This document shows positions 1 through 49,202 of a stretch of 64,000 nucleotides of DNA, in pieces (within the stretch, counting starts at the first letter, position 1; each line of letters opens with the position of its first letter). Location: positions 4,944,563-5,008,562 of the forward strand of contig JAJEKV010000020.1 of NCBI GenBank assembly GCA_021234155.1, in the 5' to 3' direction. The stretch is from Isoetes taiwanensis. Its lineage: Eukaryota; Streptophyta; Lycopodiopsida; Isoetales; Isoetaceae. A model generated the notes under the pieces. That model did not search any database. It was not told where the DNA came from and saw nothing but the letters and a program-made list of their open reading frames with translations. Both the position numbers and the translations under genes were made by a program.

Positions 1-167
1 TTAGTCATTGAATCAAATAAGCCCTGTTCAGCACTTATGAAGATTTGATCTGCATTGTTACTTTTTATTTTTTCAATCTGAAGACTTGACAGACAGGATC
101 TGCTTATGATTGTGAGATATTTTTTTCTCTCGAGAAATTTTACATGCTGGTTGTCCTGTTACTTCAG

Positions 168-939
168 GTTGTAGAACTTGGGTTTTCTGCAATGGCTGCT
201 TTAATACAGAATTGGGACAGTACTGAACCCGAAGAAAATGATGAAGCAAATTCTCCGGGCGCTTGGAAGTCTGGCTGTGAGATAATTGCAGATATTGTTG
301 CCGAGCTTTGCAGCAAGCTTGGCTAGCTCCACCACAAGTTTGTTTTGACCCGATATTTACAGTACATTGCATAAGTCTACAATGGTAAATGAGCAACTTT
401 TATCTTGCCTCATTTCTGCAGGATTTTAAAGGTGCTGAGCGACTACCACCTCCTTCCTGCTTAAACGACACATCGCTCCTTCTTGGAGCATTGGTTAAAT
501 ACATGTCAGAACCCTCTCAAGTGAGGCAGCGGAAAATTGATCTTATTCTACAGATTTGGGCAGATTTGGTGGTTGATTGGAAGGAATGGGATAAAGAAGA
601 AGATCTCAATGTCTTTGAGGCCATTCGTGAAGTCCTTGCACTGCATGTTAGTTTCTTTGAATGTACTGCATTTATAATTAGGTTTTGCACTGCCTACAGT
701 TTTGAAGGTTTTGCTGGTATAAATTACAGGGAAGATGTCCTCTCGAACACTTTGCGGTTGCAGAGCTCCCACCGCCTCCTGCTCTGCCTGTACCATCATG
801 CTCGATTCTTGAAGGAATGGCTGCCTTTGTAAGCTCAGCGATTGAAACAGCATATGCTGCTGCTACTTGGCGTGCTTACAGGATTGCACATTCTCTTTTG
901 CATTCCACTGCAGTGTCCTTTGAGAGGGCCACCAGATGA
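168..939 (+). pseudogene. Importin-beta-like ARM-repeat protein, internal exons (partial)
   Basis: Three exon-like blocks read in one phase. Block 1 (168-323) follows acceptor CTTCAG and contains GAWKSGCEIIADIVAEL. Block 2 (422-646) follows CTGCAG, ends at donor GTTAGT, and contains LLLGALVKYMSEP and DLVVDWKEWDKEEDL. Block 3 starts at 730 after TTACAG in phase 0 and contains ELPPPPALPVPSCSILEG and ATWRAYRIAHSLLH. This pattern recalls the plant importin/ARM family that includes Arabidopsis At3g17340, a nuclear transport receptor; that assignment is from memory of the family. Blocks 2 and 3 join cleanly. Block 1 runs into TAG at 324-326 with no canonical donor before it, and block 3 stops at TGA 937-939, well short of the family's usual length of about 1,000 residues. 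It is therefore a truncated gene piece, or the 5' side lies outside the window and the 3' side is lost. Confidence 0.6.
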
Positions 940-1099
940 CAGAAGCAAATAAAAAACAACATTACTAAATCAAATTGCAAATCATGTAATACTACCAAAT
1001 CATGTAATATTGTAGCTTGGTCTACCCATGCTATTTTCTGTGTCCACGTTTGAACTTAATGTGCATTGAACAAAAGCGCACAGACTATTAGCAAAAACC

Positions 1100-1183
1100 T
1101 TGAACGCATAAGCTTTGTCTTTGTCATGTTTGAAGTTAATGTTGAACGCATAAGGTTTGTCTTTGTCATGTTTGAAGTTAATG
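1100..1183. repeat. Tandem duplication, 42-bp unit x2
   Basis: Units 1100-1141 and 1142-1183 are nearly identical. Each starts TTGAACGCATAAG and ends GAAGTTAATG. No gene covers them. Confidence 0.9.
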
Positions 1184-1371
1184 CAGGATAACTGGGTGTA
1201 TATATTGGTGTATGCCATATTAGAAAGGGGCGAAAAGCTCTGATTACAATGATTCTGGTCTGCAAAAAAACACAGATGTGATTGAAATTAAAGTTACCAT
1301 AAAAAAGAGAAACAACACTCTTATTTAAGCATGATAAGTTGCAATACAAGCTTATCGATGCAATAATGGTC

Positions 1372-1431
1372 GACTACCTTTTGTTTTAACTAATGTTGGC
1401 AGACTACCTTTTGTTTTAACTAATTTTGGCA
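1372..1431. repeat. Tandem duplication, 30-bp unit x2
   Basis: Units 1372-1401 and 1402-1431 both start GACTACCTTTTGTTTTAAC and differ at one or two positions. Confidence 0.85.
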
Positions 1432-2116
1432 CCTGAAACAAGACGTTCTTGAGTTTTATATCAAGAGTTGGAGGTTGTTTTGGCCAAAAACTAAGTAGAA
1501 AAAATTGAAGAATCAAATGACAATAAGCGATTGCAGAACCATGATAAAATTGCTCAATACGACAGTTGAAATTGTAACCCCATGCATTTCAACAATCATC
1601 AAAATTGTACACTACCAAAATGCAGGAATCTATGAAAATCCATTTAGAGGAATGGGTTTTAAGAATATATGCATCCTACTACATGCATATCATGTACGAG
1701 CAGGTCCTTTTTAAATGTATTTTTCAAACAGAGAAATATACTTCGTGTATTGCCTTATCCAACACGCATCTAGGATTATATTTTTGTTCTTTGAGCTATG
1801 GCAGAGACGCAATGTCATAAAGGCAACAAAGCAACGGAGGCAGAATAGAGGGTTTTTTTGCTCTTTCAATTTGCATGAACTTAAAGAATCACCAAGATTT
1901 TTGAGTTTTTCCTTTTAGGAGTCTTTTAGTTGTTTTTTTTTTTTCTTTTTGTGTTGGTGATCTAGAGGACATTGGTAGAGGTACTCAATAGCAGAACATA
2001 CATATAAATGAAAGTTCATGCCCAGCAACGCTGGGCACCATTACTAGTCTTTATAGATTATTAGAGATTGGAACACTTTCTCACATTAGGGCGGATTTGG
2101 GGTCTGAAAATGGCCC
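1432..2116. other. Intergenic stretch, no supported gene
   Basis: AT-rich sequence with poly-T runs around 1930-1945. Short open frames here overlap each other in several frames and show no recognisable motif. Confidence 0.6.
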
Positions 2117-2119
2117 TTA
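2117..2119. repeat. Left target-site duplication TTA
   Basis: TTA immediately before the CACTA terminus, equal to the TTA after the right terminus. Confidence 0.7.
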
Positions 2120-2146
2120 CACTACCACCCCAATTCTGGGTCCACA
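2120..2146 (+). repeat. Left terminal inverted repeat of CACTA element
   Basis: The 27 bp start with CACTACCACCCC and end with CTGGGTCCACA. They match the complement of 10282-10308 except for two bases in the middle. Confidence 0.85.
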
Positions 2147-2204
2147 CCTAAAAACAACAGTAATAAGAAGACCACATGTCGTTGTTCCAAAAAATCTACA
2201 TGTG

Positions 2205-2930
2205 GTTATGTGGAGGTGTGGTTTATTAAGGAGGCGGTGTAGTTTTTTTTACGGAGCTATAGTTTCTTTTTTTTGAAGGTGTGGTCTTTTTTTGAGGTGT
2301 CGTTTTTTTTAAAAGAAGTGTTGCTTTTTTTTTGAGGGGGTGTTGTTTTTAAGAAGGTGTTGTTTTTTGAGGTGTAGTTTATAACTAGGTGTAGTTTTAA
2401 GTAGTTGTTTTTTTATGGAAGTATAGTTTTTTGAAGTGTGGTTTATAAGGAGGTGTAGTTTTTAGGTGGTTGTTTTTAAATGAAGTATGGTTTTCTGAAG
2501 TGGTGTGATTTTTTTAATTGAGGTGTTGTTTTTTGAGGTGTCATTTATAAGTGGGTGTAGTTTTCAAATAGCTATTTTTTAAAGAAATATGGTTTTTTGA
2601 AGTGTGGTTTATAAGCGAGTGTAGTTTTTAAGTGGTTGTTTTTTAATGAAGTATGGTTTTTTGAAGTGGTGTAGTTTATAACTAGATGTAGTTTTTAAGA
2701 AGCTATTTTTAAGGAAGTATGATTTTTTTAAGGTGTGGTTTATATAACTAGGTGTAGTTCTTAAGTACCTATTTTTTAGAGTAAGTATGGTTTTTTGAGG
2801 TGTGGTTTTTAAGTGGTCGCATTTTTAAAGAAGTGTGGTTTTCTGAAGTGGTGTGGTTTATAACTAGGTGTAGTTTTTACGTAGCTATTTCTTAAGGAAG
2901 TATGGTTTTTTTGAGGTTTTTTTGAGGCAA
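2205..2930. repeat. GT-rich minisatellite, left array
   Basis: Irregular repeats of about 60-70 bp are built from the modules GGTGTGGTTTATAA, GGTGTAGTTTTTAAG, TGGTTGTTTTTTAA and GAAGTATGGTTTTTTGA in recurring order. The array lies just inside the left CACTA end and may serve as subterminal repeats. A second copy lies at 3715-4215. Confidence 0.8.
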
Positions 2931-3030
2931 TTTCTTAAGCAAAGCACCACCACCTAGAATATTGTTTGTGCGCTCAAATTTGGGAATGGATCGTATTGTT
3001 TTACATTCGTGAAATATACCTTCAACGGTT
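2931..3030. repeat. Unique spacer, copy 1 of a larger duplication
   Basis: The spacer contains TTTCTTAAGCAAAGCACCAC and AATATTGTTTGTG, then GTTAGATCCAAGG. The same spacer recurs at about 4216-4325, in the same place between a GT array and a CCACCTAGG array. Confidence 0.75.
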
Positions 3031-3714
3031 AGATCCAAGGTGGCTCAACCATGCCATGTGGGCTCCAACATGCCACCTAGGCTCCAACATGCCAAGGTGG
3101 CTCAAGTATACCACCTAGGCACCAACATGCCACCTAGGCTCAAACATGCCAAGGTGGCTCAAACATGCCATGCGGGCTCCTATATGCCACCTATAGGCTC
3201 TAACATGCCACATGGGCTCCAATATGCCACCTAGGCTCCAACATGCCAATGTGCCTCAAACATGCCACCTAGGCTCCAACATGACACCTAGGCTCAAACA
3301 TGTCAAGGTGGCTCAAGCATGCCACGTGGGCTTCATGCCACCTAGGCTCCAACATGTCAAGGTGGCTCAAACATGCCATGTGGGCTCCAACATGCCACCT
3401 AGGCTCCAACCTGCCAAGGTGGCTCAAGCATGCCGCCTAGGCACCAACATGCCACCAAGGCTCAAGCATGCCAAGGTGGCTCAAACATGCCATGCGGGCT
3501 CCAACATGCCACCTAGGCTGCAACATGCCAAGGTGTCTCAAAACGTGGATTCCCAACATGCCACCTAGGCTCCAACATGCCTAGGTGGCTCAAACATGCC
3601 ACCTAGGCTCCAACATGCCACCTAGGCTCAAACATGCCAAGGTGTCTCAAACATGCCACGTGGGTTCCAATATGCTAAGGTGGCTCAAACATGCCACGCG
3701 GGCTCCTACATGCC
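3028..3714. repeat. 19-bp minisatellite array 1 (CCACCTAGG/CCAAGGTGG)
   Basis: Two 19-bp unit types alternate: CTCCAACATGCCACCTAGG and CTCAAACATGCCAAGGTGG. Because 19 is not a multiple of 3, the translation repeats every 57 bp (19 codons). Most frames stay open on both strands, which creates spurious proteins of up to about 120 residues with the motif SNMPPRLQHAKVAQ. Confidence 0.95.
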
Positions 3715-4215
3715 AGGTGTGGTTTATAAGGAGGTGTAGTTTCTAAGTGGTTCTTTTTTAAGGAAGTATAGTTTTCTGAAGTAGTGTGATTTTTTTAATT
3801 GAGGTGTTGTTTTTTGAGGTGTGGTTTGTAAGTGGGTGTAGTTTTTAAATAGCTGTTTCTTAAAGAAGTATGATTTTTTAAAGTGTAGTTTATAAGTGGT
3901 GTAGTTTTTAAGTGGTTGTTTTTTAATGAAGTATGGTTTTCTGAAGTAGTGTAGTTTATAACTAGGTGTAGTTTTTAAGAAGCTATTTTTTAAGGAAGTA
4001 TGGTTTTTTTTAGGTGTGGTTTCTATAACTAGGTGTGTTTTTAAGTAGTTGTTTTCTAAAGTAAGTATGGTTTTTTGAGATGTGGTTTATAAGTAGGTGT
4101 AATTTTTAAGTGGTTGTTTTTTAAAGAGGTGTGGTTTTCTGAAGTGGTGTGGTTTATAACTAGGTGTATTTTTTAAATAGCTATTTCTTAAGGAAGTATG
4201 GCTTTTTTGAGGTTT
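3715..4215. repeat. GT-rich minisatellite, second array
   Basis: The same modules as at 2205-2930 appear in the same orientation, starting abruptly inside a CATGCC unit of array 1. The unit [GT array - spacer - 19-bp array] is therefore present twice in tandem. Confidence 0.8.
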
Positions 4216-4319
4216 TTTTTAGGCTATTTCTTAAGCAAAGCACCACAACCTGGAATATTGTTTGTGTGCTTAAATTTGGGAATGTAACATATTGTTATAA
4301 ATTCGTGAAAAATGTTAGA

Positions 4320-5552
4320 TCCAAGGTGCTCAAACATGCCACGTGGGCTCCAACATGCCACCTAGGCTCCAACATGCCAAGGTGGCTCAAGCATGCCACC
4401 TAGGCACCAACATGCCACCCAAGCTCAAACATGCCAAGGTGGCTCAAACATGCCATGCGGGCTCCTACATGCCACCTATAGGCTCCAACATGCCAAGGTG
4501 GCTCAAACATGCCACGTGGGCTCCAACATACCACCTAGGCTCCAACATGCCACCTAGGCTCAAACATTCCAAGCTAGCTCCTACATGCCACCTAGGCTCC
4601 AACATGCCAAGATGGCTCAAACATGCCATGTGGGCTCCAACATGCCACCTAGGCTCTAACATGCCAAGGTGGCTCAAGCATGATGCTTAGGCACCAACAT
4701 GCCACCAAGGCTCAAACATGCCAAGGTGGCTCAAACATGCCACAAAGGCTCCAACATGCCACCTAGGCTCTAACATGCCAAGGTGGCTCAAACATGCCAT
4801 CTAGGCTCCAACGTGCCTTGCCTAGGCTCAAACATGCCAAGGTGTCCCAAACATGCCACGCGTGCTCTAACATGCCAAGGTGGCTTAAACATGCCACGCG
4901 AGCTCCTACATGCCACCTAGGATCCAACATGCCAAGGTAGCTCAAACATGGCACGTCGTCTCCAACATGCCAGCTAGGCTCAAACATGCCATGTGGGCTC
5001 AAACATACCACGTGGGCTCCAACATGCCATGTGGGCTTCAACATGCCACCTAGGCTCTAGCATGCAAATGTGGCTCAAACCAAGGTGGCTCAAACATGCC
5101 ACGCGGGCTCCAACATGCCACCTGGGCTCCAACATGCCACCTAGGCTCCAACATGCCAAGGTGGCTCAAACATGCCACCTAGGTTCCAACATGCCACCTA
5201 GGCTCGAACATGCCAAGGTGGCTCAAACATGCCACATGGGCTCCAACATGCTACCTAGGTTCCAACATGCCAAGGTGGCTCAACATGCCACCTAGGCTCC
5301 AACATCCCAAGGTGGCTCAGACATGCCAAGGTGGCTCGAATATTCCGTGGGCTCCAACATGCCACCATGGCTCAAACATGCCAAGGTGGCTCAAACATGC
5401 CATGTGGGCTCCAACATGCCACCTAGGCTCCAACATGTCAATGTGGCTCAAACATGCCACGTAGGCTCCAATATGCCACCTAGACTCCAACATGTCAATG
5501 TGGCTCAAACATGCCACGTAGCTCCAATATGCCACCTAGACTCCAACATGCC
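4320..5552. repeat. 19-bp minisatellite array 2
   Basis: About 60 further units of the two 19-bp types, with variants (CCACGTGGG, CCATGCGGG, CCAATGTGG). The array ends at about 5552, where the exon region of the next feature begins. Longer open frames on both strands are by-products of the 57-bp coding period. Confidence 0.95.
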
Positions 5553-5578
5553 TCCAAGCCCTATTTTATATAATGCAG

Positions 5579-6103
5579 TCAGGAATATGTCTCCATTCTC
5601 TGGCTCTATGACAGGATGCAGCTTAGAAGACACTCATATTTGTTCTCAAGATCATATGGCTGATGTTAATGTATCAATTGATGAGGTAATACTGCCTGCA
5701 AGACCTCAACCCACTAGGTTAAGTGAAATGGATGGATGTGCTGCTTTGGCTATTACAGCCCGTCTTGAAAGAAATGAATCAGTACTACATGGGCATATTA
5801 GTATGGACACTCAAACATGGGTCAGATTTGCTGATCTCAATAGTGGTATTCCAGATGCCTCAGTGCACAATTTGGCAAAAGCAAGGCTGATCCGAGGTTT
5901 TGTTAATGATGGCTTGCCTCATGACATAATTGAGAAGGCAAGGGGGATGGATGATGGCTGGGCAAGAACTTACAGAACGCTCCTTGAAAATGTAAGTCCA
6001 CATTGGCATGTAACTTTGATGTTTTCTGTTTTACCTCTCTTAAGCCAGTATTTTTGTGCAGGCAACAGACGTGGAGATAGATAGCCAATTGGAAGAAGAA
6101 TAG
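5579..6103 (+). CDS. 3'-terminal exons of an unidentified spliced gene, inside the CACTA element
   Basis: An exon runs from acceptor AATGCAG (exon start 5579) to donor GTAAGT (exon end 5991). A second exon runs from acceptor TTTTTGTGCAG (exon start 6062) to TAG at 6101-6103. The phases agree (phase 0 at the donor) and give about 150 residues ending VEIDSQLEEE. Visible motifs are RLSEMDGCAALAITARLE, DTQTWVRFADLNSGIPDAS, and GFVNDGLPHDIIEKARGMD followed by DGWARTYRTLLEN. The composition is that of a normal soluble protein. I do not recognise the family. Upstream exons are replaced by the 19-bp minisatellite. Lying within the inverted ends of a CACTA element, it is best read as a captured host gene fragment; an element that gained a terminus beside a resident gene is the alternative. 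Confidence 0.6.
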
Positions 6104-9100
6104 AATAGAATAGAATATGAAGACTAGTCTCACACATTGCTTGTCTTCTTTGTTGTGACTCTTAATGCTACTTGTACTAAACATCAGTCTATTTGTGTGT
6201 GTTTTCAAACTTGCACACAAATAATTTTGCATAGACCTTTTGTCACTTGCCAAGTAGCAGATCTTCTCTATTTCGAAACTTGTGTGCCACGAAAATGTTG
6301 AAAAACATGTTATGAGGCAAGGGTGATGCAACTGTAATTTAGGGATGTTGCTAAATTGTTGTTTGATTGTTAGATGTATGCCATTAGATGCTAGTTAGAG
6401 TGTAGCAGAATTTGATATTCATGTGCGTGAATTGTGGTATGCATGTGCGCAATTTGTGGACTGATGTGCCACAATCGACTCTTAACAGGTGAGCAAATGA
6501 TGGTGGTTTGCAAGCATTACAATTGTTTGATGCGCAATTGATGGTAGTTTTATGCGCAAGTCAGTGCGCAATTGATGGTTCTGTAGTGCGTAAACTGGGT
6601 TCTCAGACCCCCCTGTGTTTGAGCAGCTATAGCTTACAAGTGGCTATTCCGTAGACCTTGATTCTGGCATTATTTCGTAGCTTATCTTTCAGGCTTTCAG
6701 ATGAGCCATGTTTTGTGGCGAGATTCCATGCCTTCTGCCCATAATTGCAATTGCCCCCTTAAGTGAGCATAACACGGCGTGTCTCCCCTAGAGATAAGGT
6801 TTTAAAATTGTGAAAATCGTATGATGTTACATAAGATTGTGAATTGTTATGGAGGTGTATTTGTAGATTTGTTTGTATAATGCTGACGGTGGATGGGCTA
6901 GCTTGACCCAAAGAGATGCCTTTATACAAGTTGCTTCTTTAGATGTTAGAACAACATGACACCGAGATGCTAAAAAAAGGAAATCTGGCATGTTGCTAAT
7001 TTAAGTATTTTCATTTGCATTAAGTGTAGAGCAAGGAACAGGGGGCCTTTTTAGCACGATGATGGCGACAGACTTAATAAGTGGTTACAAGGCTATTATT
7101 AGCGATGCGGAGAAGGCAGGAAGTGATACCTGTTAAACACTCCTTCAATTAGATTAATCCATGGTGAAGTGGGCATTCATTTAAGAAAACAAATCACCAT
7201 AGCTTGATTGTGGAGGCAAGATGGGTTCTTGCAAAGGAGCTCGAATCAGCTCCAGATTTGGTCCACTGGTCTTTAGGAGGCCGAATTGAAGAATTGTGAT
7301 CGCCGCAAACAGTTCTGAGCAAGCAAGGCTTGCATCCAAAGAAGCCAGGGTCGGAACTGATTTTTTCCACAGGCCACGATTGGCCTTGAAAATTGCAGAG
7401 GGTCTTAAGGGCCCGAAGTTGGTCTTGGTAAATTTTTGTGGCAGTTGGAGCTCTCAGTTGGGAGCTTGGACTGAGTGAAGCAGGTCAGCAAGGAAAAATA
7501 GTTCATCCCCAATTTGTGAGGAAGTTGGGATCCCGACTTGGAGTAGGTTATGGATTGCAGGGTTTATGGAGCCACATAGAAAGACCTGTGAGAATAAATT
7601 GGCCATTCCAGAGAATCCTGCTATGAGCAAGATAAGAAATTGAGGCAGTATAAGAGTTTGTCCCAAACCGTCTTAAGATGATAGATTATGAAAAGAAAAC
7701 ACGCCCTGATAGAGTGGGATCTGCCATATCCTTCATGCAGAGTTGTGAAAGGGCTTGTTTGCCTCATATTTATTTACGTTCTTGTAGCTATTTTTTATGC
7801 TTGTGCTATGGCGGTGGAGGCATATAGAACAGTAGCACCAAAGGTATATGTAGATTGTTTGCATAAAATTTCAAATTTGTAAAATAAAATTGACTTCCTT
7901 CAAAGGTGGAAAATTCATATGCTGAGGTGGAAAATCTAGTTTGACACCATCACAGATTTTGCGGATGGGGAAGAATGCATTAGAAGGAATATACTTGGGA
8001 ATATTATTAAAATCAATGGCTATAACTTTAAGGTAGAAAAAAACAAGCCCCCGCCTTGAACGTAAATTATGACACGTTGAAAGTTAAAGTTAGAGAAATA
8101 AAATCGTGTGAGAAAATGTTCTATTCAATAGCCAAAATTAATGGTCGAGATTTGGTCCGGATGAACGGTCATGATTTCGATCCATGTATTATCATCCTAT
8201 TGGTTGGGCCACTTTCCCGCCTTGGTCGCTTTGCCGCTTCACCTAGTCTGGAAGCCCATCCGTCAAGTGATGAGCAAATCCATGGCGCCGATTTTTTCAT
8301 GCTTGATGGCGCTCATGTATATCTTGGCACTCAACGATTTCGGTGGTGGAGCTCACGATTTTGGGCATGAAGAACTTGCTCATGCGTAACCGAACTCCTT
8401 TGCCGCTCTTCTTGCCGCTAGTTCCGACGGTTCTTTGAGCCTTTTCCCTTAGAATATTAGCGGTTCTCCGGGAGTAGCGGCCGCCCATCTTGAGATTCCT
8501 GAATGGTTTATTCTGCGGATACTGATTTGGACGAAGCCGCTTCAATATCTGAAACCCCGCTCTTTCCTACATCGATTTTGAATGCTTTTGTTTCTTTTTG
8601 TGTAAAATGTATGGCGTAGAAGTTCAAGCTAATTTTTTTTTTTGTGCCAAAATGTTTGGATTCGCGTAGCAGTTTTGGAACCACAAAGAAAGACCTGGTA
8701 CATGTTTTTACTCTAATCGTTGATTCTCAAATGGCTTGTTCCCCTCGTTTCAGCCTCCATTACTTCCCTGTTTCAACGCCAAATCTGTTACATGTGCATA
8801 GTCATTTGTTGCTTCCAGCCATTACATGGCCATGAATAGCAACAATAATATGCCTTTTGCTTTGTGTTGTCGCTTTTTTCTTCAAAAGATTGTTTTGTAG
8901 TTTTCTTTTACATTTTTTCTTTATGTGGTAAGTTGTGCATTTGCGGGCTGTGTGGAACCCGATATTCCATTTCCCATGGCGGAAGAGACGGCCTTTCACA
9001 TGCCTCTTCAAGTGAAACTTTCATAAATATCCCTTCTCCCGACTTCCGGTTTCTCGGCTTATTCAAATGTTCGACGGTACCGTGGCTTAAATGTGGAGGA

Positions 9101-9480
9101 TATGGTTGTATTATTGGGTACAATATTCCTTTATTTTATCTTGAAAATTTAATGCTCGAAATTTGTTCATGATCACAAAGATATGCTCAATTTATTTGAT
9201 CAATGTAAATATCCTTTGGCAGGGGCTCATACGGCCATGAGCACATTGCAACACTTTTAATAGCCGTCTGCGCCCTGCATTTGATGAACATTTAGACAGA
9301 TCATATGTTCAACCATTGATAAATATTCGCCGAACAGATGATTATCTTGATGAGGAAACAGGAAACACTTTTGGCATTTGATAGCAAATATTTTGATCTT
9401 GTAAAAAGAATAGAATCACAAAAAGTCCAGAAACATATGGTTTAATAACTACATATAAGGAAGGAACATAAGAACTACCA
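6104..9480. other. Interior of CACTA element without recognisable gene
   Basis: A short GAATA repeat lies at about 6099-6117. Short direct repeats of TGCGCAATTGATGGT occur near 6530 and 6565. The open frames at 7296-7626, 8056-8389 and 8864-9172 overlap in several frames and carry no motif I recognise, including no transposase signature. Confidence 0.5.
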
Positions 9481-9639
9481 TGCCTAATGGAATTATTTGG
9501 GTTCGATTCCAAAAAGGCAAGAAATTAACAATAGTTTGAACTAGGGTTCCTAAATAAATTTGCATAACATAGTGCTTCTTTTGTCAATATTATCTTTAAA
9601 TGTATTTTTGGTAAAAAACATGTGTTGTTTTTGTAAATT

Positions 9640-10281
9640 TTAAAACTGCGTGTGGGTGGTTTTTTTATTTTTCCCCAAAAACAACACTCGAAACAACCGC
9701 TACCCTTAAGAAATGATGTGTTAGTTTTTTGATAACTACACTTGAAAATGCTTATTTTTAAAAAGCCACGTGTGGATTTTATGTAAAACAATACTAAAAA
9801 ATAGCACCTAGTTTTGATTAACCACATTTTTTTTCTTAAAACCACATATCATTTTTTTGGAAAACCAACAACTAAAAACAATATAGTTAAAAAAAAAATG
9901 CAGACAACTACGTGTAGTTTCTAGCAAAGTCGGACAAAATTCTCTATGTAGTTTTTCAGTGTAATTTTTTTGTTTTCTTGCAAAACAACAGTTAAAAACA
10001 ACATGTGGACCTTTTAAGTTTTATTAAGAACCACATGTCTTTTTTTCACGAAAGCAACACTTGAAAACTACGACTACTTTTAAAAAACAACATGTTGAAA
10101 CACATGTAATTCCTACGCGTAGATAATTTTGACAAAATTCTACGCGTAGAGTTTTTACAAAAAAACTACAAGTATAAAAGTTTGACTAAAAACTACACGT
10201 TGTTTCTAGCAAATCCGGACAAAAAACAACACGTAGTTTTTTAGTGTTGTTTTTTAGCAAAAAAGACACTGAAAAACAACA
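9640..10281. repeat. A/C-rich subterminal repeats, right end of CACTA element
   Basis: Repeated modules include AAAACAACA, CCACATGT, ACACGTAGTTTTT and CTACGCGTAG. Read inward from the right terminus they mirror the T/G-rich character of the left subterminal region. Confidence 0.65.
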
Positions 10282-10308
10282 TGTGGACCCAGTTTTGGGG
10301 TGGTAGTG
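10282..10308 (-). repeat. Right terminal inverted repeat of CACTA element
   Basis: The complement starts CACTACCACCCC and continues to CTGGGTCCACA, matching 2120-2146. It is followed by TTA at 10309-10311. Confidence 0.85.
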
Positions 10309-10311
10309 TTA

Positions 10312-12099
10312 TCTTGGGTTAAAGATTTCCACATCAGATTCGCCAGGACCAATCAGGTTTGCGCCTTTTTTACGAAAGTCAGTATTACTTGGCAGGTAGA
10401 AGGATGAGCAGGCTTACTTGGCATCCACATGGCGTATTTTCATAGGGGATGCCTGCGCTTTTATTGCAACCATTTTAATGGCCCGTATTTTTCGGGAGTC
10501 GCTTCGCCGCCCAAAATAATGGTGACTTTGACCCGCCCTCTTGTCGCCACCAACTCCCTTGTCAAATTTTGGTGCCAAACTTCAGATCTTTGTCACTCCT
10601 GGCCATTTCGTGCATCCTCTCCGCCTTCACTCCTCATCTGCAATCCATGTCTCCTGTAATTTCTGTGTTCTTGCCCCATTTACAGAACTCCCAAGGTCAA
10701 GAAGTGGGAGGTTTTGTCTCAATAGGTTCGTGGGTGAGTATGCTGCCATCAACGAGGGGCGAGCATAGAGTTAAGCGACAAAGGCGATCGGTCGTCTTGG
10801 ACACATTGGATAGGTAGGATAAAAGAGTTCAAGTTGAATTCTAGCGCCGGAAAGTGGAAAGTATAACAATACGACATGCATATACCCCTTCCGATATGGC
10901 CAAAGAGCTAATCTCCACCAAAAAGCGACTTCCCAAAATTGCCCGCAAATGGTAACCACCTTAATCGGATCACACGACCGAAGCTAGTCGTCGCCTACTT
11001 AATGCGAGAGAGATAGTTTTCGCCGCGGTGATCTCCTTATCTTTTCATTTCTTTCGTTGACACGTGTTTACAAACAAATTTATTGTGCAGGTTTATGTTT
11101 ATCAGACGTCGTGGATGTCATTCCGGCCGAAAGTATTAGTAGTGTACTTGTCGTGTATCACATAGACATCGAAATTGTCCTTTTCCAAGGTATGGATGCC
11201 GGACCTGACTTTGGGGTATAGGCATCCGGTTTTACTGGACATGATTATAACGTAAAGGTCGTGAAACCGAGCTTGAGGCCGGTTGAATTGCCCCTTTAAG
11301 TGAACTTTGTAAGCCACAGACTAATGAGAACAATGTAATTGCAATGAAGAAATGCCTGGCTGACGAGGTGCAAGCGGGAATGTCTGAAAACGGAGGCGTG
11401 AGGATGAGTAAAATCTTCACACCGTTTGAGGTATTTGCTAACATATTCCAGATGGCGCAGGAAGTTCGAAAAAGTTCAAGACATATACGTGCTTTCTCCC
11501 CCGCCGATTTTGTGGATGGCTTATTTTTGGTTCCGACACAGGATGTTCGATTCCACTAATCATCCGGTCAACTAATGAGGTCCGCGTAGTTAAGTCCTCC
11601 TTTAAGTTCAGATCAACTAGAACGAAGGAAACGAAAAAAGAGAGGTTGCACAACTTTTTGGGAGCCGTTTGAGGACCATAATGTACACTCCGTCGCGGTG
11701 GATATTCGAAAGTATGGAGAGGGGAGGAAGTCATTTATACAGCCACCATGAAAGTTTTAATGGCCATTTATCGAGCTAAGAGTGCTAATGGAGACAGAGG
11801 AGATTGTTGACGACTTCCATTATTTTATTGATGGCATTAGGGTTGGTTCTGAGGCAAGAGGGAAATGTAAAGTTTAGTGAGTTCGCGATCAACAAGAAAT
11901 TGTCTATCGCCTAGCGCTTTGAATCTCGGTTTTTTTATTTGTGTTTTTGTCCGATGTTTTTTAGGGTTCCGTATTTTGTCCGATATTTTTTAGGGTTCCA
12001 TTACAATTATTTAAAAACGTTACCATCATCTTTTACTTTAACTTCTGTTTTTTACTATTTATCTCTTGCCGGTTGTCTATTTTTGTCGTTGTTCAGTAG
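10312..12099. other. Unassigned sequence, possible decayed genes of the hairpin cluster
   Basis: Open frames around 11102-11559 (for example 11344-11559 +, with the residues SKIFTPFEVFANIFQMAQEV) look protein-like but are interrupted, and I cannot name them. A left half-hairpin, ATCACACGACCGAAG, occurs at about 10969. A 30-bp unit (TTTTGTCCGAT...TTTTTTAGGGTTCC) is present twice in tandem at about 11945-12003. Confidence 0.4.
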
Positions 12100-12125
12100 T
12101 ATAAAGCGCCATCCGCTGAGAAGCC

Positions 12126-12912
12126 ATGGCAAGAACTAAGCAAACTGCAATCCATGCAGGTGGTGTAAGGCCGTGATTACATTAGTCCGCCTTCTTCATC
12201 TCGACTCTCAAGTCTCGATAGAGATTCTCCTCCTCCGACCATGCCTAACGTAAGAAGACCCGAAAAGAAATCCGCATGATAGGCGGCGGAGAAGAAGCTC
12301 GGAGTAAGTAGGGAGGTGCACTCGGTTCGAGACGAGGATGAAAATGTGAGAGACCCGCGAAAGCGAATATGACGGATTAATTATTGGGCAGCTTATTATT
12401 CTTGCTCTTCCCGGCTCCTCCCGTGGAGGTGTTAGGACCTTCAAATCAAAGGAGGAGGCCCAACGCCTTTAAAGGGGAAGGCGACCGGGGAATGTGAGGG
12501 AGACGGAAGAGTCGGGCCGAGGAAACCTCGCAAATGTCGGGTGAGGAGGCGGCCGGAAGAGTCGGGCCGAGCAACGTGCTCCAAATGCCGGGTGGGTGAG
12601 GGTAGTGGCCGGAAGCGAAGACTAAGCCCGGCATTAAAGCGCTTCGCAAGATTAAGAAGCATCGAAGAGCACCGAGATGGTCATTCCACGCCTCCCATTT
12701 GCCGACTCGCGGAGAGAGATTCTCAAGAGTGTGGTGCGATACATCATACCAAGCATAGAATTCAAGCAACCGCTTTAAATGCTCTTCAAATGGCTTCGAA
12801 GCAGCTTGGTGTCTGGCCTGTTCGAGGACTTCGCAGCCTTGCAGCAATACATGCCAAGCGGATGTCATGCCCAAGGACATGCGCCGCGCCTTACGATAAG
12901 GGATCCCGAAAG
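12126..12912 (+). pseudogene. Divergent histone H3-like pseudogene
   Basis: ATG at 12126 opens MARTKQTA, the exact N-terminus of histone H3, but the frame closes after MARTKQTAIHAGGVRP. From 12624 the histone fold resumes across three frames: KPGIKALRKIKKH (canonical RPGTVALREIRKY), then EMVIPRLPFADSRREIL (ELLIRKLPFQRLVREIA), NALNALQMASKQL, SGLFEDFAAL (VGLFEDTNL), AIHAKRM (identical core to AIHAKRV) and MPKDMRRALR (MPKDIQLARR). The order and spacing match the alpha1-loop-alpha2-loop-alpha3 regions of H3. The divergence is far greater than among plant H3 genes, which are nearly invariant. At least two frameshifts and a foreign or greatly enlarged stretch (about 12175-12620) separate tail and fold. 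A TATAAAG lies at 12100. It is either a relic of a foreign H3 or a badly sequenced gene. Confidence 0.65.
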
Positions 12913-13111
12913 TACTATGGTCAAAATTTTATGGCTGAATACAACAAGAAGAAAGACCCCTTTAAAAAGGCCGTGAAGTGCCTTTTTGTGTTTTTTCATA
13001 TGTATAATATTTCTTAATGTAATGGCTTTATAAGCTTAATCTCTTAGTCCATTTCTTTCTTAGAAGCCTAGCTTCGCACTTTGTATTTTTTTTTTTTAAT
13101 GTTATACGCGA

Positions 13112-13180
13112 GGATCACACGACGCGCAGCAAGCATTGTGCTTTTTTGTTGCACATAGTAGTCTTCGTGTCGTGTGATCC
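13112..13180. repeat. Intergenic hairpin 1 (TCACACGAC family)
   Basis: Arms GGATCACACGAC (13112-13123) and GTCGTGTGATCC (13169-13180) are perfect over 12 bp around a loop of about 45 bases. It lies between the H3-like pseudogene and the next gene, and touches the telomere-type repeat. Confidence 0.85.
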
Positions 13181-13220
13181 AACCCTAACCCTAACCCTAA
13201 CCCTAACCCTAACCCTAAAA
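13181..13220. repeat. Telomere-type repeat (CCCTAA)6
   Basis: Six perfect CCCTAA units occupy 13183-13218. This is the TTAGGG type, not the TTTAGGG type usual for land plants. It starts right after hairpin 1. Confidence 0.95.
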
Positions 13221-13346
13221 TGTACGGACAAATCTCCCACAACTACCGTGTCCCCTTTCATAATCGATAAACGGCTACTTGAGTTCAAAAGTGACAGCGC
13301 CTTACCGCTCCTAAACATCTTCTTATTTTCGTCGTTTGCTTCGCCA

Positions 13347-14657
13347 TGGATTGTTATGTGAAGTTCCTGGAATGGTATGCATCCGCCCCTCATGACAACG
13401 AGGAAGTTGCGCCGACTGCGATTTATCCGTTCTATTGCAAGGAGTTGGACATCATGGCAAACAGTAGCGAGCTTGGATGCTATCGCGAGGTTGCCTTAGC
13501 TTTCACCCGGACCGCTTGGTCTTAGCGCACGTCCTTTGCAGATGTCCCTGGCTTGTGGATTCCAAAACCAGCTCTAGAGGAGGCGGCTTCCCATTTGCAA
13601 ACAGGGAAGATGTTTTTCAAGAATGCTGCGCAACGGGCTCCTCCTGGCTGCGTCCTTGTGCTTAAGAAGGTATCTTATTTCTCTTTGCCGTTTGCATTTG
13701 CTAGTTATTGCATTTCGCTTTCGCCAAACCAAGATACACCGAAACAATGAAATCTTTAAGCCAAGGGGGGTCAGTTATGTGTGATGATGCTGACTATGAC
13801 GTAGAAATGGAGATAGATCTACAAGAAGAAGAGCAAGAATGTAGGAGTTTTAGCTTCGACGCACTGGCCTTGGGTGAACCAGAGGAGGGAGATGATTCTG
13901 AAGGTGATGAGGATGGGGATGAGGATGAAAAGAAGTTGTCTGACATAACGCCAATTTTAGTGGAAGGCAAAGAATACCTATTGCTAAGTGATATACTGAG
14001 AAACCCGTCTTTGTTACGAATGTGTGCTAGGGAAGACGAGCTTATCAACACCTTGGCCGAATGGGTAAACTTAGGCCTAGATTTTGAAGAGGATTTGGAC
14101 AAAGAGATGTTTGAAGTGTCTAATTATACCGGCAATGCTATAAAGCTTAAAGAAGCCTATGAGAGGCTGGAGTCTCGATTTGCTCAAGATGAGGCGAATC
14201 TACCAACGGAAGAAGAATTCCAGCGTCTCCGTGCAAAGCTGCCAACAGGATCTACAGGTTTGGCAGGCCCTTCAGTCAATCGCGGCAGCATAAGCCTGGT
14301 AGATGAGGATAAATGTGAAGAAGATAAGCTTGAGGGTTCTTATTTGTGGGAAGTAGTAGATTTTTTTTTGCCGACATGCACGCGGGGGACGGGGAAAGAT
14401 TGAAGGACTCTACATTGTTACGATATATCTCAAGATTCGTTAATGGGGAGATAATCGTCTTCGCCAGAACTTTCAGTCCAAAAGGTGCGAGTTTGTCTAT
14501 TACATCCGCATTATGCATGTTCGGGAACCATTCCCAATTGGCATCAAACACTGAAAGGGTGATAGCAATTCGGCGGGATGTTGTGCTACAATATTTTGAC
14601 GACCAAGCCGGTCTGCGGGCGAGCAATATGTTAAATCTTTTAGTCTGGCGGGTTTGA
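13347..14657 (+). pseudogene. Acidic protein with possible SF3/D5-helicase-like tail, frame-broken
   Basis: A first frame from ATG 13347 (MDCYVKFLEWYASAP...) closes near 13525. A second (about 13540-13670) includes LWIPKPALEEAASHL and ends near a possible donor GTATCT. From 13747 a long frame encodes an acidic protein (EEEQECRSF, EPEEGDDSEGDEDGDEDE) with ITPILVEGKEYLLLSDIL and stops at 14403. A run of T at about 14361-14369 shifts into a third frame, 14370-14657: GDGERLKDSTLLRYISR, IIVFARTFSPKG, ITSALCMFGNH, NTERVIAIRRDVVLQYFDD. The last block recalls the C-terminal half of superfamily 3 (D5-type) helicases: motif C as a hydrophobic strand ending in Asn (FGNH), then an RR finger. No Walker A is visible, so this resemblance is tentative. 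Hairpins flank the unit on both sides. Confidence 0.4.
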
Positions 14658-14978
14658 CTCACCTAAGGTTGGAAGCAGGGGTCGATAACATGGAAGTCAT
14701 TGCCTTGTTGGATCGGTCTTGTGGGGATTGAAAGAGCATGAAATTGACGACGAAGCTTGAGAAATTGGAAGTTATATGTTTTCTAACTTGTATCATTAAA
14801 ATTATTTATGTACGATTGTCCTTCCGAAATTCCTAATAAAAATTATTTTATTTGTATTTATTCACATCACGCCTGAAATACATCACCGCTTTTTACATCA
14901 TATCTAGGTTTTCGCCGTGGTGATATTTATCTCAAGAAATGAAATATTATTGGAAAAAACAATTAATTTATTTATTCC

Positions 14979-15009
14979 TCACACGACGCCGAGAAGCAAC
15001 TTCGTGTGA
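14979..15009. repeat. Intergenic hairpin 2, short form
   Basis: TCACACGA at 14979-14986 pairs with TCGTGTGA at 15002-15009. It lies 8 bp upstream of a TATA box. Confidence 0.75.
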
Positions 15010-15016
15010 CTCATGT

Positions 15017-15024
15017 TATAAATA
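15017..15024 (+). promoter_or_regulatory. TATA box of coiled-coil gene A
   Basis: TATAAATA lies 105 bp before the ATG at 15129. The context GTTATAAATAGAAGA is identical to that of gene B, and a pyrimidine-rich leader follows. Confidence 0.65.
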
Positions 15025-15128
15025 GAAGACCGATGTCCACGCTGACCTCGACGCCTTCCCTTACGCTCATCTTCTACTTCCCCGGCCTTACCGCTCATCT
15101 TCTACTTCCGCCTTCCACCTTCCGCCCG

Positions 15129-15522
15129 ATGGCATCATCATCTTCCTCTAGCGACCACGCCAAGATAGCACTCCGCAGCCGCCCGAGCTCGCCGTGGACA
15201 TCACCCTTTGCGGTGGTGATGAAGAGATTCAAGGAGATCCATGATGAAAACAACCGTCCTCGCCGCCGAGAACAATGAGGGCGGTCGAGATTAGCCTTCA
15301 CGAGGGAGCTACCGCGACGAAGCGAGACGTTGAGCTCGTGGAAACATTCGCCATGTACCAAGAGGCGGCGAGCCGGGGCGGCGGTAGTTGAAACTGCTCA
15401 CATGATTTCGCAGGCCTTAGAAGATATGGAGAAGAAGCTCCGAAGCCGCGGAGGATGAGAACGCCAGCCCACGGCAAATAGCGGGACATGAAAATCAGCT
15501 AGAGGATCATGAAGATCCCTAG
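15129..15522 (+). pseudogene. Coiled-coil family gene A, frame-broken paralogue
   Basis: ATG 15129 opens MASSSSSS, as in gene B. In shifting frames the sequence gives PELAVDITL, then AVVMKRFKEIHDEN, matching PELPADITLAVVMKRFKE of gene B. Later pieces include ETAHMISQALEDMEKKL and ENQLEDHEDP. At least two frameshifts and several stops separate the pieces. It is an intronless small charged protein predicted to be coiled coil, of unknown function. It sits between hairpin 2 and hairpin 3 with its own TATA box. Confidence 0.6.
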
Positions 15523-15621
15523 CCGTTGTATCTATCTATTTTTTGCTTCAAAGAAAAGTTTTCTCTATTCTTTGCTTCTGTCTATCCTCTTGTTCCAATG
15601 TATGTTCTGTTTTATTAAAAT

Positions 15622-15686
15622 ATCACACGACGCGAAATGCCTTGCTTGCAATTAGGTAGCAATCAATGGATTTCGCGTCGTGTGAT
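15622..15686. repeat. Intergenic hairpin 3, best conserved copy
   Basis: A perfect 16-bp arm ATCACACGACGCGAAA (15622-15637) pairs with TTTCGCGTCGTGTGAT (15671-15686), with a 33-base loop. It lies about 100 bp after gene A. Confidence 0.95.
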
Positions 15687-15848
15687 CTCCATGCCGTTCT
15701 ATTTTGCTTCAATGAGAAGTTCTATCTTTAGTTATGTATCAGTAAAATTACTTATGTATAGATTGTATCACCGAAATTATGAATAAAAATTATCACACGA
15801 GCTTTGTCTGGAAGAAAAGACGTTAGAAGAAGTAACGGTCCTTTTTCC

Positions 15849-15910
15849 TCACACGACGCGTTAAGTAACGGTCCATTTTCCTGACCCACGGCATCCTTCG
15901 CGTCGTGTGA
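15849..15910. repeat. Intergenic hairpin 4
   Basis: TCACACGACGCG (15849-15860) pairs perfectly with CGCGTCGTGTGA (15899-15910). The segment AAGTAACGGTCC is directly repeated across its left arm. It sits 24 bp upstream of the gene B TATA box. Confidence 0.9.
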
Positions 15911-15934
15911 CTCAAGCTATTACGAAATCCCTGT

Positions 15935-15942
15935 TATAAATA
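15935..15942 (+). promoter_or_regulatory. TATA box of coiled-coil gene B
   Basis: TATAAATA lies 95 bp before ATG 16037 in the same GTTATAAATAGAAGA context as gene A, followed by a CT-rich leader (repeats of CTTCCGC). Confidence 0.65.
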
Positions 15943-16036
15943 GAAGATCTTCTATCTTGCCTTCGACCTCCGATCCTCTTCCATCTTCCGCCTTCTGCTC
16001 ATCTTCTCCGCCTTCCGCCTTCCGCCTTCTCCTCCG

Positions 16037-16342
16037 ATGGCATCTTCATCCTCCTCCAGCAAGCGACCGCGCCCAGAGCTGCCCGCGGACATCACCCTTG
16101 CTGTGGTGATGAAGAGATTCAAGGAGGTTCACGACGAAAACAGCCGTCTCGTCGCCGAGAAGATGGAGGCGGTGGACAGGTTAGAATTCACGAGGGGGCT
16201 GCTGCATGAGCGAGACCTTGAGCTCGCTGCAACATTAACCAGGTACCGAGAGGCCAATAGTCGTAGGGTCGAGACAGTTTTAACTGCAGGCGAAACCCTT
16301 CATAGGGTTTTAAAGCTCGTGTGCAGATTTCGCGTGGTGTGA
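16037..16342 (+). CDS. Coiled-coil family gene B
   Basis: The intact frame of 101 residues starts MASSSSSSKRPRPELPADI, followed by the family core TLAVVMKRFKEVHDEN and a charged helical stretch (KMEAVDRLEFTRGLLHERDLELAATLTRYREANSRR, shown here in parts as KMEAVDRLEF and LELAATLTRYREAN). It is probably alpha-helical and coiled coil. It is shorter than gene C (156 residues). The last codons and the TGA (16340-16342) come from a right half-hairpin (TTTCGCGTGGTGTGAT, 16328-16343), so its 3' end looks truncated by recombination into a hairpin. The start is chosen because gene A shares it. I recognise no known domain; function unknown. Confidence 0.55.
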   Translation: MASSSSSSKRPRPELPADITLAVVMKRFKEVHDENSRLVAEKMEAVDRLEFTRGLLHERDLELAATLTRYREANSRRVETVLTAGETLHRVLKLVCRFRVV

Positions 16343-16343
16343 T
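16328..16343. repeat. Half-hairpin forming the end of gene B
   Basis: TTTCGCGTGGTGTGAT differs by one base from the right arm of hairpin 3. No left partner is nearby. It supplies the gene B stop codon. Confidence 0.7.
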
Positions 16344-16495
16344 ACAGTGTAGTTAGAATAGTTATTAATGTGTTCCAGCGGACAGTACCATTAATGTGTT
16401 CTAGCGGACAATGTGTTCTAGCGGACAACCGACAGAATCCGCTCGACACGTGCGACAGCAGCCGACTGTGTTTAATATGTTCAAGCGCTAATATG

Positions 16496-16503
16496 TATAA
16501 ATT
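16496..16503 (+). promoter_or_regulatory. TATA box of coiled-coil gene C
   Basis: TATAAATT lies 93 bp before ATG 16589, at the same distance as for genes A and B. No full hairpin precedes it, only the half-hairpin at 16328. Confidence 0.55.
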
Positions 16504-16588
16504 GAGGTCCTTGCATTGTGCTCCTTCCGCCGGTTAGAGTCTTTGCTCCTCACTTCTATAATCTTAACGTCCCTCCCATTTGTCATCT

Positions 16589-17059
16589 ATGGCCTCCACA
16601 TCCTCAACCGCTGATAAGGGAAAACGCAAGAGGATAGAACTCCCTTCTGACATAGTGTTGGGTGTTCTAATGAAGAGGTTGAAGGAGCAAGATGATCTTC
16701 TAAAGGAAAACGCCGTTACAATTCAGCAAAAAGAAGAAGAGAATGAATTCAACCTTCTCATGCTTCGTAGCCAGGAGAGGCAAATCAGGCGGTTGAATAG
16801 AAGGCTGGACAGGATGACATGCCCCAACAACTGCATTGAGGTGGTTATGACGGCAACGAGGTTGCTAATTCAGGCAGAAGAACATGTTATGCTATTGGGA
16901 CAGGAGCGGGACATGTACAAAGAGATGGTGGGCAGATTAGAGGAACGTTTGGATGGGGTGATTGCAAGCTTGAGGAGAAGAGATGAAGACGAAGACGAGG
17001 ACGGAGCTGATGATGATGATGAAGATAATGAAGAAGAGCTCGCACTAGAGCAACAATGA
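16589..17059 (+). CDS. Coiled-coil family gene C, full-length paralogue
   Basis: The ATG at 16589 gives 156 residues: MASTSSTADKGKRKR, the family core IELPSDIVLGVLMKRLKE at about residues 16-33, then long heptad-like helices (QKEEENEFNLLMLRSQERQ; RLNRRLDRM), a middle segment CIEVVMTATRLLIQAEEHV, a second helix EMVGRLEERLDGVIASL, and an acidic tail (EDEDEDGADDDDEDNEEE). It is intronless, with no signal peptide or membrane segment. It is probably an oligomerising nuclear or cytoplasmic protein given the basic N-terminus and acidic tail, but I know no homologue. Two hairpins follow, and the next gene converges on it. As the only unbroken full-length member, it defines the family. Confidence 0.6.
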   Translation: MASTSSTADKGKRKRIELPSDIVLGVLMKRLKEQDDLLKENAVTIQQKEEENEFNLLMLRSQERQIRRLNRRLDRMTCPNNCIEVVMTATRLLIQAEEHVMLLGQERDMYKEMVGRLEERLDGVIASLRRRDEDEDEDGADDDDEDNEEELALEQQ

Positions 17060-17142
17060 GTCGTTGTATTTTGTTTTTCAATGTAACATCTTTCACAACT
17101 TTAATCAAAAGTAACCTTTTTTTATTATTATCTTGTAAAGCT

Positions 17143-17206
17143 TCACACGACGCGAAGCCACATAAATGCAAGCAATAGCGAACTCCACTGTTCGCACCGT
17201 ATGATA
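17143..17206. repeat. Intergenic hairpin 5, degenerate right arm
   Basis: The left arm TTCACACGACGCGAAG starts at 17142-17143. The right side TTCGCACCGTATGATA (about 17191-17206) matches with several changes. Confidence 0.6.
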
Positions 17207-17215
17207 CAAATAAGA

Positions 17216-17278
17216 TCACACGACGCGAAGCTACAGTTGTGCAAACAAGGTTGGAGGCAAGTACTTCGCATCGTGTGA
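17216..17278. repeat. Intergenic hairpin 6
   Basis: TCACACGACGCGAAG (17216-17230) pairs with CTTCGCATCGTGTGA (17264-17278) with one mismatch. It lies between the 3' ends of two convergent genes, with 12 bp to the stop side of the minus-strand gene. Confidence 0.9.
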
Positions 17279-17290
17279 ACATGCTACACA

Positions 17291-18540
17291 TTACAAGTAT
17301 ACTTTACCGATTCTTTGTCTCTTAGATCTCCACTGTTGCGATGCTAGTGGGGCCCTAGAATTTTGCCAAGCAACTTTCCGTTTTCTCTTCAGCATTATGC
17401 CAATGGTGTTTACGACTTGTGGGTTGCTCCTTAAAGCGACCTTCTTGTCGTATTTAGCCATCGCCCTTCTATAAAACCACTCTGTCATCTGTCTTAGAGG
17501 GTTGGTTCCCACATTTCCACCCCCTCTTTGAGTGTTACGATGAAAGGCTATTTTAGCTTGTTTATGCGACTTCTCCATGCCTTGTGCACTCCATTAATCG
17601 CTAGGCTTCCATACTTCCTAAAAACCAAGGTGCATGAGCCCAAAAGATGTGCAAGTAGTGCGTGACTTCACTCTCTCCCCATCGTCTATGAAAGCTTTAA
17701 TAAATTTGTTATTCGCTTGCACGAACATTTACGCATCTTCTCTTGTGAGGTCCATTCTCCGAATGTATGGGAACAATTCGGACAATGCATCCCATGCTTT
17801 TTTTTCCTCAATGCCCGAACGAACGCCATCCATGCGGTGCGGTCCCCGCTTCGCATCAACCAGCAATTTTCCAAATTCATAGACCTTTTCTCCCATCCGG
17901 TTTCCGTTCGAGCCTCTCTATGATTCTTTATGAAGCGTCGAGCTTTCACCCCTCAATTGACACCTTACGAGGCACACTTGTTCTTCCCCGCCCGTTTCTC
18001 ATCGAGCTCTAATCTTACATTGCCACCATGCAAACACGCTTCGATAGAACATGTTCAACTCTACGAATTCCTTCCTCTCTTCTCTTCTTGTCTGAAATGT
18101 TCCACACGAATCTGCAGCTCAAAAATATCATCTTGTCGATGATTCTCACAAAGCCGTGCAAAGTGCAGATATGAACCCTCTCTAATGGTATGGGGAAAAT
18201 CCCATGGAACTTGGGATCTTCTTCTCCTCTATTAGGAGCATTTGCTTGGTTAAGGGACAAGGTTGAAACAGTCTTCCCAGTACTTGATGACTTCCTTGCA
18301 TGATTGCAGTACAGACAACTTTTAGATGTTCCTTGTCCTCCTCCACTTATGTTGTACATTGCTTTCTCAGTTTTTAAATCAGACGCCAAGTGAAAAATTA
18401 CTTTGTAAGATCCATAGTGATCTACTTGCAATTTTTTCCCTCCCTCGAATCTAGATATTAGACTCGGGATGTCAGTTTGATTGAACACCCATTTCAATAC
18501 CTCGTGGGTTTCTTTCCTCCCCCTCCTTCGAATGCTCGCC
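17291..18540 (-). pseudogene. Cysteine-motif protein of unknown function, frame-broken
   Basis: The minus-strand reading begins near 18540 (THEVLKWVFNQTD). The longest open piece (18497-18015) has VDHYGSYKVIFHLASDLK, MYNISGGGQG, the paired-cysteine motif SKSCLYCNHARK, and FPIPLERVHICTLHGFVR. Beyond 18050 the reading moves between frames: EACLHGGNVRLELDEKRAG, VYEFGKLLVDAKRGPHRM, WDALSELFPYIRRMDLTRED, then 17578-17294 with NPLRQMTEWFYRRAMAKYD and a basic C-terminus. This order suggests a single protein of about 400 residues with at least three frameshifts. CxxC plus a later C/H could bind zinc. I recall similar unnamed proteins in mobile elements but cannot name a family. It converges on gene C across two hairpins. 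Confidence 0.5.
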
Positions 18541-46774: not shown

Positions 46775-46913
46775 GGAAATTTCTAGGTCCCTAAAGGTTA
46801 CGGCGGGAAACTCCGCTCGCAAGAGGTTTCCTGGAAGAAACCCCTGGCGGCGCCGCCGAGAGCGGGCTCGCGGAAGTTTCCCCTTCCGTAACCTTTGGGA
46901 CCTGGAAATTTCC
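46775..46913. repeat. Shortened palindrome (centre deletion) in a 723-bp monomer
   Basis: The same arms as at 49014-49202, but the inner right arm (TTTCTTCCAGGAAACC) is missing. This accounts for the 50-bp shorter monomer. Confidence 0.8.
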
Positions 46914-49013: not shown

Positions 49014-49202
49014 GGAAATTTCTAGGTCCCTAAAGGTTACGGCGGGAAACTCCGCTCGCAAGAGGTTTCCTGGAAGAAACCCCTGGCGGCGCCGCCGCTC
49101 GCGGCTGCCGCCGCTCTCGGCGGCGCCGCCAGGGGTTTCTTCCAGGAAACCTCCTGCTCGCGGAAGTTTCCCCTTCCGTAACCTTTGGGACCTGGAAATT
49201 TC
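49014..49202. repeat. Representative 189-bp palindrome in a satellite monomer
   Basis: The left arm runs GGAAATTTCTAGGTCCCTAA, GGTTACGG, GAGGTTTCCTGGAAGAAACC, CCTGGCGGCGCCGCCG. The right arm is its near-exact reverse: CGGCGGCGCCGCCAGGGG, TTTCTTCCAGGAAACCTC, CCGTAACC, TTTGGGACCTGGAAATTTCC. Arms are about 90 bases with a short GC-only centre. Equivalent palindromes sit at the end of every monomer. Confidence 0.9.

Follow-up and report, generated by a model that had tools for sequence, protein, structure and literature searches.

A decayed multi-gene DNA transposon of Isoetes taiwanensis with a histone H3 gene, hairpin-bracketed genes and a putative RAG1/Transib-type transposase

A 64,000-nucleotide stretch of the Isoetes taiwanensis genome (assembly GCA_021234155.1, contig JAJEKV010000020.1, positions 4,944,563 to 5,008,562 of the forward strand; hereafter the window) contains a compact cluster of small genes separated by copies of one hairpin. 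This raises the question of whether the cluster is a relic of a large DNA virus or a giant mobile element, the two origins offered in an earlier note on this sequence. The viral origin was not supported, as the cluster is one copy of a repeated unit lying between terminal inverted repeats and carrying a transposase-like gene, while the reading as a giant mobile element, a transposon, stood. That the unit is a multi-gene plant DNA transposon, inserted without target-site duplication (TSD) and bearing a histone H3 gene under selection, is well supported. The full explanation, a decayed multi-gene DNA transposon of the host plant with terminal inverted repeats, a RAG1/Transib-type transposase, an H3 variant and hairpin-bracketed genes, is probable.

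Genome-wide counts covered 1,658,258,908 bases in 1110 contigs; L numbers denote genome stretches, C numbers denote contigs or copies, and the reference copy provides the coordinate system of the element. The hairpin arm, ATCACACGACGCGAA, gave 1947+2005 matches with up to 1 mismatch, against 95+82 for the reversed control, and among the 100 matches listed these often lay in clusters. All twenty 10-kb stretches picked at such clusters aligned to parts of window positions 10309-18519, the shortest alignment covering about 0.3 kb (L011) and the longest almost the entire span. Junctions in other copies located the element termini as CATTAGGGCGGATTTGGGGTCT, inverted at both ends. With up to 2 mismatches this 22-mer gave 905+906 genome matches, compared with 0+0 for its reversed control. 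Copies of intact length share the ends CATTAGGG...CCCTAATG and measure 11.8-13.8 kb between inverted termini (C246, 13,813; C133, 13,834; C35, 13,596; C91, 13,491; C327, 11,764 bp), and identity to the reference copy was 83-92.5%. The L026 copy has an internal deletion and is about 6,540 bp from end to end, and in the short form of the right end about 2 kb (reference 11.77-13.79 kb) adjoining a duplicated block is missing. Facing termini about 4 kb apart were found on at least nine contigs among the matches listed. The ends were read for eight such pairs (that of C90 being 4.6 kb), for one 0.57-kb pair and for one 0.10-kb pair, and the shared 22-bp terminus suggests that these ten copies are derivatives of the element. 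Those with termini about 4.0 kb apart on C54, C79, C112, C204, C208, C335 and C357 probably represent a recurrent non-autonomous derivative.

Both ends were read in 16 copies, six of which were followed through and ten examined at the ends only (C91 by eye); none had an exact TSD of 3 bp or more. The flanks agreed over 1-2 bp in five of the 16, about the level expected by chance. The C35 copy interrupts a 438-residue open stretch that ends in a clean H3 domain, and its joined flanks read ...LALARRIRGGA, so this insertion neither added nor removed anything visible. Inverted termini without a TSD are also a feature of Spy elements, which are Harbinger-like and insert without duplicating their target, whereas the predicted transposase here resembles RAG1 and Transib.

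The divergent histone H3-like gene noticed earlier proved to be real. In the window copy it lies on the plus strand at 12126-13017, with TATAAA at 12100, and is frameshifted. In copy C152 a 179-residue frame matched the Pfam Histone family (E 4.4e-30) and had H3.2 as its best PDB match (E 8.5e-27); in this variant four residues are inserted after the first helix, ahead of loop 1. Its fold is 57% identical to what we take to be the canonical H3 sequence. The gene starts with the exact tail MARTKQTAR in seven of 19 copies, always at reference position 1869. Tail and fold share one open frame in none of the copies read; in C209 the two frames are in one phase, separated by a few codons with stops. 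The ratio of nonsynonymous to synonymous substitution (dN/dS) was 0.25 for the H3 fold (three stop-free copies), 0.30 and 0.14 for two pieces of the acidic protein described below, and 0.25 and 0.47 for the coiled-coil protein cc4, as calculated from stop-free ungapped pieces of these genes and of the transposase, a choice of copies that may bias the values downward. A substitution periodicity signal was present in the acidic, coiled-coil and transposase stretches, blurred by frameshifts.

On the minus strand, positions 17310-18516 hold the C-terminal part of a predicted RAG1/Transib-type transposase gene, which is frameshifted and lacks its N-terminal part. The transposase had no Pfam match. 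Foldseek searches with AlphaFold models gave RAG1, BbRAGL and Transib as the best matches, and the models predict an RNase H fold with an insertion domain of RAG1 type. The spacing of the catalytic and zinc residues is RAG1-like, judged against what we take to be the RAG1 residue numbers. Together, the low-confidence models and the motif spacing support the assignment of this gene as a predicted DDE transposase of RAG1/Transib type. The inverted ends beginning with CA are a further likeness to Transib and RAG-like elements such as ProtoRAG and TransibSU. The present element differs from these in its plant host, its terminus, the absence of a recognised RAG2-like gene, its hairpins, and its many extra genes, including histone H3. 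Termini resembling the heptamer of a recombination signal sequence (CACWATG or CACTW...) were not encountered, all ends read being CATTAGGG, and no kelch or PHD match was obtained in Pfam among the submitted frames, which are broken.

Several observations weigh against the full explanation. Confidence is low in both transposase models (pLDDT 54.6 and 62.6), which were built from one shared alignment of 10 sequences, and the Foldseek TM-scores were only about 0.2-0.46. A transposase profile compared with PDB sequences found no RAG1 and returned one chance match (E 0.93), and kinship to RAG1 as against the CACTA/Chapaev (CMC) group is tentative. According to a passage of PMC7204232, insertion of RAG, Transib and RAG-like transposons creates 5-bp TSDs, and such a duplication was not seen here; in one of the 16 copies (C54) the flanks agree at five of six bases, which is about what chance gives. 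The dN/dS values of the transposase pieces were 0.26, 0.61, 0.64 and 1.03, and all such values rest on 2-6 stop-free copies per piece. Finally, none of the copies read has every gene open.

The plus strand of the element carries the H3-like gene, an acidic-protein gene and four coiled-coil genes, bracketed by hairpins. The acidic-protein gene (13346-14761, plus strand; MDCYVKF... to ...GHEIDDEA) is broken in the window and has a collinear homologue in the second locus described below; the D5/SF3 helicase tail once suggested for it was without Pfam support. Of the plus-strand coiled-coil genes, cc1 (15129-15520) is broken, cc2 (16037-16342) has lost its end to an internal deletion, and cc4 (16589-17059) retains a 156-residue open frame. 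TATAAA boxes had been reported before three paralogous start codons, and were found at 15017, 15935 and 16496, located 112, 102 and 93 bp before the ATGs at 15129, 16037 and 16589; TATA boxes are kept before H3 and cc1-cc4 across copies. All four coiled-coil proteins start with MAS followed by a Ser/Thr-rich run, and cc1 and cc2 are clear paralogues. Neither the acidic nor the coiled-coil proteins had a Pfam match above threshold. A sub-threshold match of cc1 to HAUS1 (E 0.002; 18.4 bits, where the cut-off is 40) was rejected as coiled-coil noise.

A search of the window with up to 3 mismatches found 12 arm matches, all inside 13114-17279, compared with a mean of 0.80 and a maximum of 3 in 100 shuffles, and the hairpins lie between genes as had been claimed. 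The window copy contains nine of them (10.97-17.28 kb), of which five are full and one is shortened, the other three being cut or degenerate. The full hairpins are at 13114-13178, downstream of the H3-like gene; at 15622-15686, with both arms perfect; at 15848-15911, upstream of the cc2 TATA box; and at 17142-17205 and 17215-17279, the pair correctly noticed earlier in the gap between convergent genes. The shortened hairpin is at 14978-15013 (reference locus 4714). Degenerate hairpins are located at 10970-11032 (reference locus 681, intact in L009 and L021) and 14862-14924 (reference locus 4597, intact in other copies), and the hairpin at 16281-16342 (reference locus 7602) has its left arm cut by the internal deletion. 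Six AACCCT units occur at 13181-13218, directly 3' of a hairpin and 5' of the acidic gene, and are perhaps a telo-box-like promoter motif.

Across 19 copies the element has 13 hairpin loci with 110 instances, a few register duplicates included. The span was 61-63 bp in 86 of the 110, though the interiors are mostly unrelated between loci. None of the 13 loci overlaps the coding intervals of the element, as set by hand from open frames, a result equalled in 2 of 20000 random placements and in 189 of 20000 circular shifts. The interiors add weak pairing in some loci (mean z -0.92 over the 13 loci; in four, 6% of shuffles or fewer were equally stable). A scan of the window against Rfam gave no matches. 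As the arms are constant and constantly spaced, the pair would be recognised as DNA or RNA, and its position at unit borders suggests a role in termination or insulation.

The window copy itself is heavily damaged. Its left terminal inverted repeat (2084-2119, plus strand) is 97% identical to reference 1-36 and matches the right end of the reference inverted. It is separated from the body of the copy (10309-18516, plus strand; reference 34-9805; 88-91% identity by blastn) by a nested CACTA-like insertion at 2120-10308, which lies outside the element proper. This insertion has inverted ends CACTACCACCCC..., with 26 of 28 terminal bases matching, and is flanked by a duplicated TTA triplet (2117-2119 and 10309-10311); it also contains tandem-repeat arrays of GCTCCAACATGCCACGTAG units. 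A deletion at 16283-16293 took out about 1.6 kb of the element (reference 6025-7613), the third coiled-coil gene with it, and truncation at 18516 has removed nearly a third of the element, the transposase N-terminus included. Most genes of this copy are frameshifted. Elsewhere in the window, fourteen near-identical 64-bp tandem pairs of TGCTTGATTCGCTCTACAAATCTCAAAAGATC units, in runs about 0.7-0.8 kb apart, form a higher-order repeat array at 45176-62551. A pentatricopeptide repeat (PPR) frame is also present; the I. taiwanensis genome is described in a passage of PMC8566536 as rich in PPR genes.

An endogenised nucleocytoplasmic large DNA virus would account for the compact unit, the histone gene and the hairpins at gene borders, which would be viral transcript ends. 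Mimivirus does have hairpins at its transcript ends, between genes; here, by contrast, arm sequence and spacing are constant across loci, and the hairpins are carried by a plant transposon. Against such a virus stand the presence of a transposase-type gene and the copy number, in the hundreds, of units that end in identical inverted termini. Scans of the viral_contigs set, which see close relatives only, found no relative of the transposase homologue, the H3 fold, cc4 or the acidic protein. In three of the protein scans 23, 36 and 126 stretches had a short shared pattern, and all failed confirmation; a search of the same set for the exact hairpin pair returned 0 matches. No Pfam match to capsid, polymerase or packaging ATPase families was obtained among the frames submitted. 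At their sensitivity for close relatives, the viral scans weigh against a viral origin, to which we give almost no credence. A more serious competitor, though still unlikely, is a CMC superfamily transposon that acquired host genes, the RAG1-likeness being general to the group. Like CACTA elements, this is a large plant element whose ends begin with CA and whose transposase is possibly related, and CMC and Transib share the layout of zinc and catalytic residues. A passage of PMC4411706 places Chapaev within the Transib superfamily. The terminus, however, is CATTAGGG and not CACTA, a TSD is absent in 16 of 16 copies while the nested CACTA-like insertion has one of 3 bp, and none of 10 members scanned against Pfam matched a CACTA transposase family up to E 10.

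Two further alternatives concern the hairpins. Their short inverted repeats and constant length would suit small miniature inverted-repeat transposable elements (MITEs) that inserted into the element, and simple MITEs unrelated to genes had been named as what would overturn the original reading. The arms do occur genome-wide, yet 183 of 184 matches (up to 2 mismatches) fell within element-aligned sequence, which made up 53% of the bases of the window and L009-L043; the count omits L001-L008, and most of its stretches had been chosen at hairpin clusters. The 13 positions are moreover constant across copies, with interiors mostly unrelated between loci and none in coding intervals, making MITEs very improbable. 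Slightly better placed, though still improbable, is the idea that the hairpins are recombination sites for the gain or shuffling of single-gene cassettes, like the attC sites of integrons. Each of the four coiled-coil genes is bracketed by hairpins, and next to a duplicated block the two forms of the right end, long and short, have a length difference of about 2 kb; the duplicates are nevertheless explained by unequal recombination, and no exchange whose breakpoint fell precisely within a hairpin was observed.

The C35 insertion site also exposed a second locus (L044:5305-6000 with L039:1-620, and L036:2017-3650), in which a long-tailed H3 frame and acidic-type frames, in the same order, are split by the element copy. 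Counted from its first Met, the protein encoded there has 413 residues and a C-terminal H3 domain (Pfam E 4.4e-40) that shares 87% identity with what is presumably the canonical H3 sequence. Frames b1 and b2 are collinear with the acidic protein; in 2000 shuffles for each frame, one did as well for b1 and none for b2. This locus may belong to a second element family. In the right flank of L026 (oriented 9904-10000), about 310 bp from the copy end, an acidic-type N-terminus MDYAKCQQWYQDGEHWD... was found (22 residues, E 0.001), and two of the eight right flanks read adjoin, just upstream, an acidic-type gene of such loci. This hints at insertion near related H3-plus-acidic loci. The pair occurs in two divergent loci in one order, and in vertebrates RAG2 reads trimethylated lysine 4 of histone H3 for RAG1. 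A bolder proposal, which we think unlikely, is a plant RAG1-type recombinase lineage: a multi-gene transposon with its own H3 variant, blunt TSD-less insertion and fixed-spacing hairpins, tending to land beside related H3-plus-acidic loci, in which the H3-plus-acidic pair is a chromatin module partnering the RAG1-like enzyme.

For the transposon with a RAG1/Transib-type transposase, the enzyme would cut at the CATTAGGG ends and join them to the target without stagger. The hairpins might separate one RNA polymerase II unit from the next, most likely as transcript 3' ends by analogy with the Mimivirus rule, or alternatively offer an element protein a pair of binding sites. The H3 variant could be deposited on, or mask, the chromatin of the element, which might allow it to escape silencing or might guide the transposase.

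A passage of PMC7204232 gives protostomes, cnidarians, fungi and echinoderms as groups in which Transib elements have been described. A RAG1-like transposase in a lycophyte, if true, would extend the history of this enzyme into plants and be relevant to how V(D)J recombination arose. The hairpins with their fixed spacing provide a clear regulatory architecture that is open to test. We know of no earlier example of a DNA transposon that carries a histone H3 of its own kept under purifying selection, and such an element would make the control by a transposon of its own chromatin directly testable.

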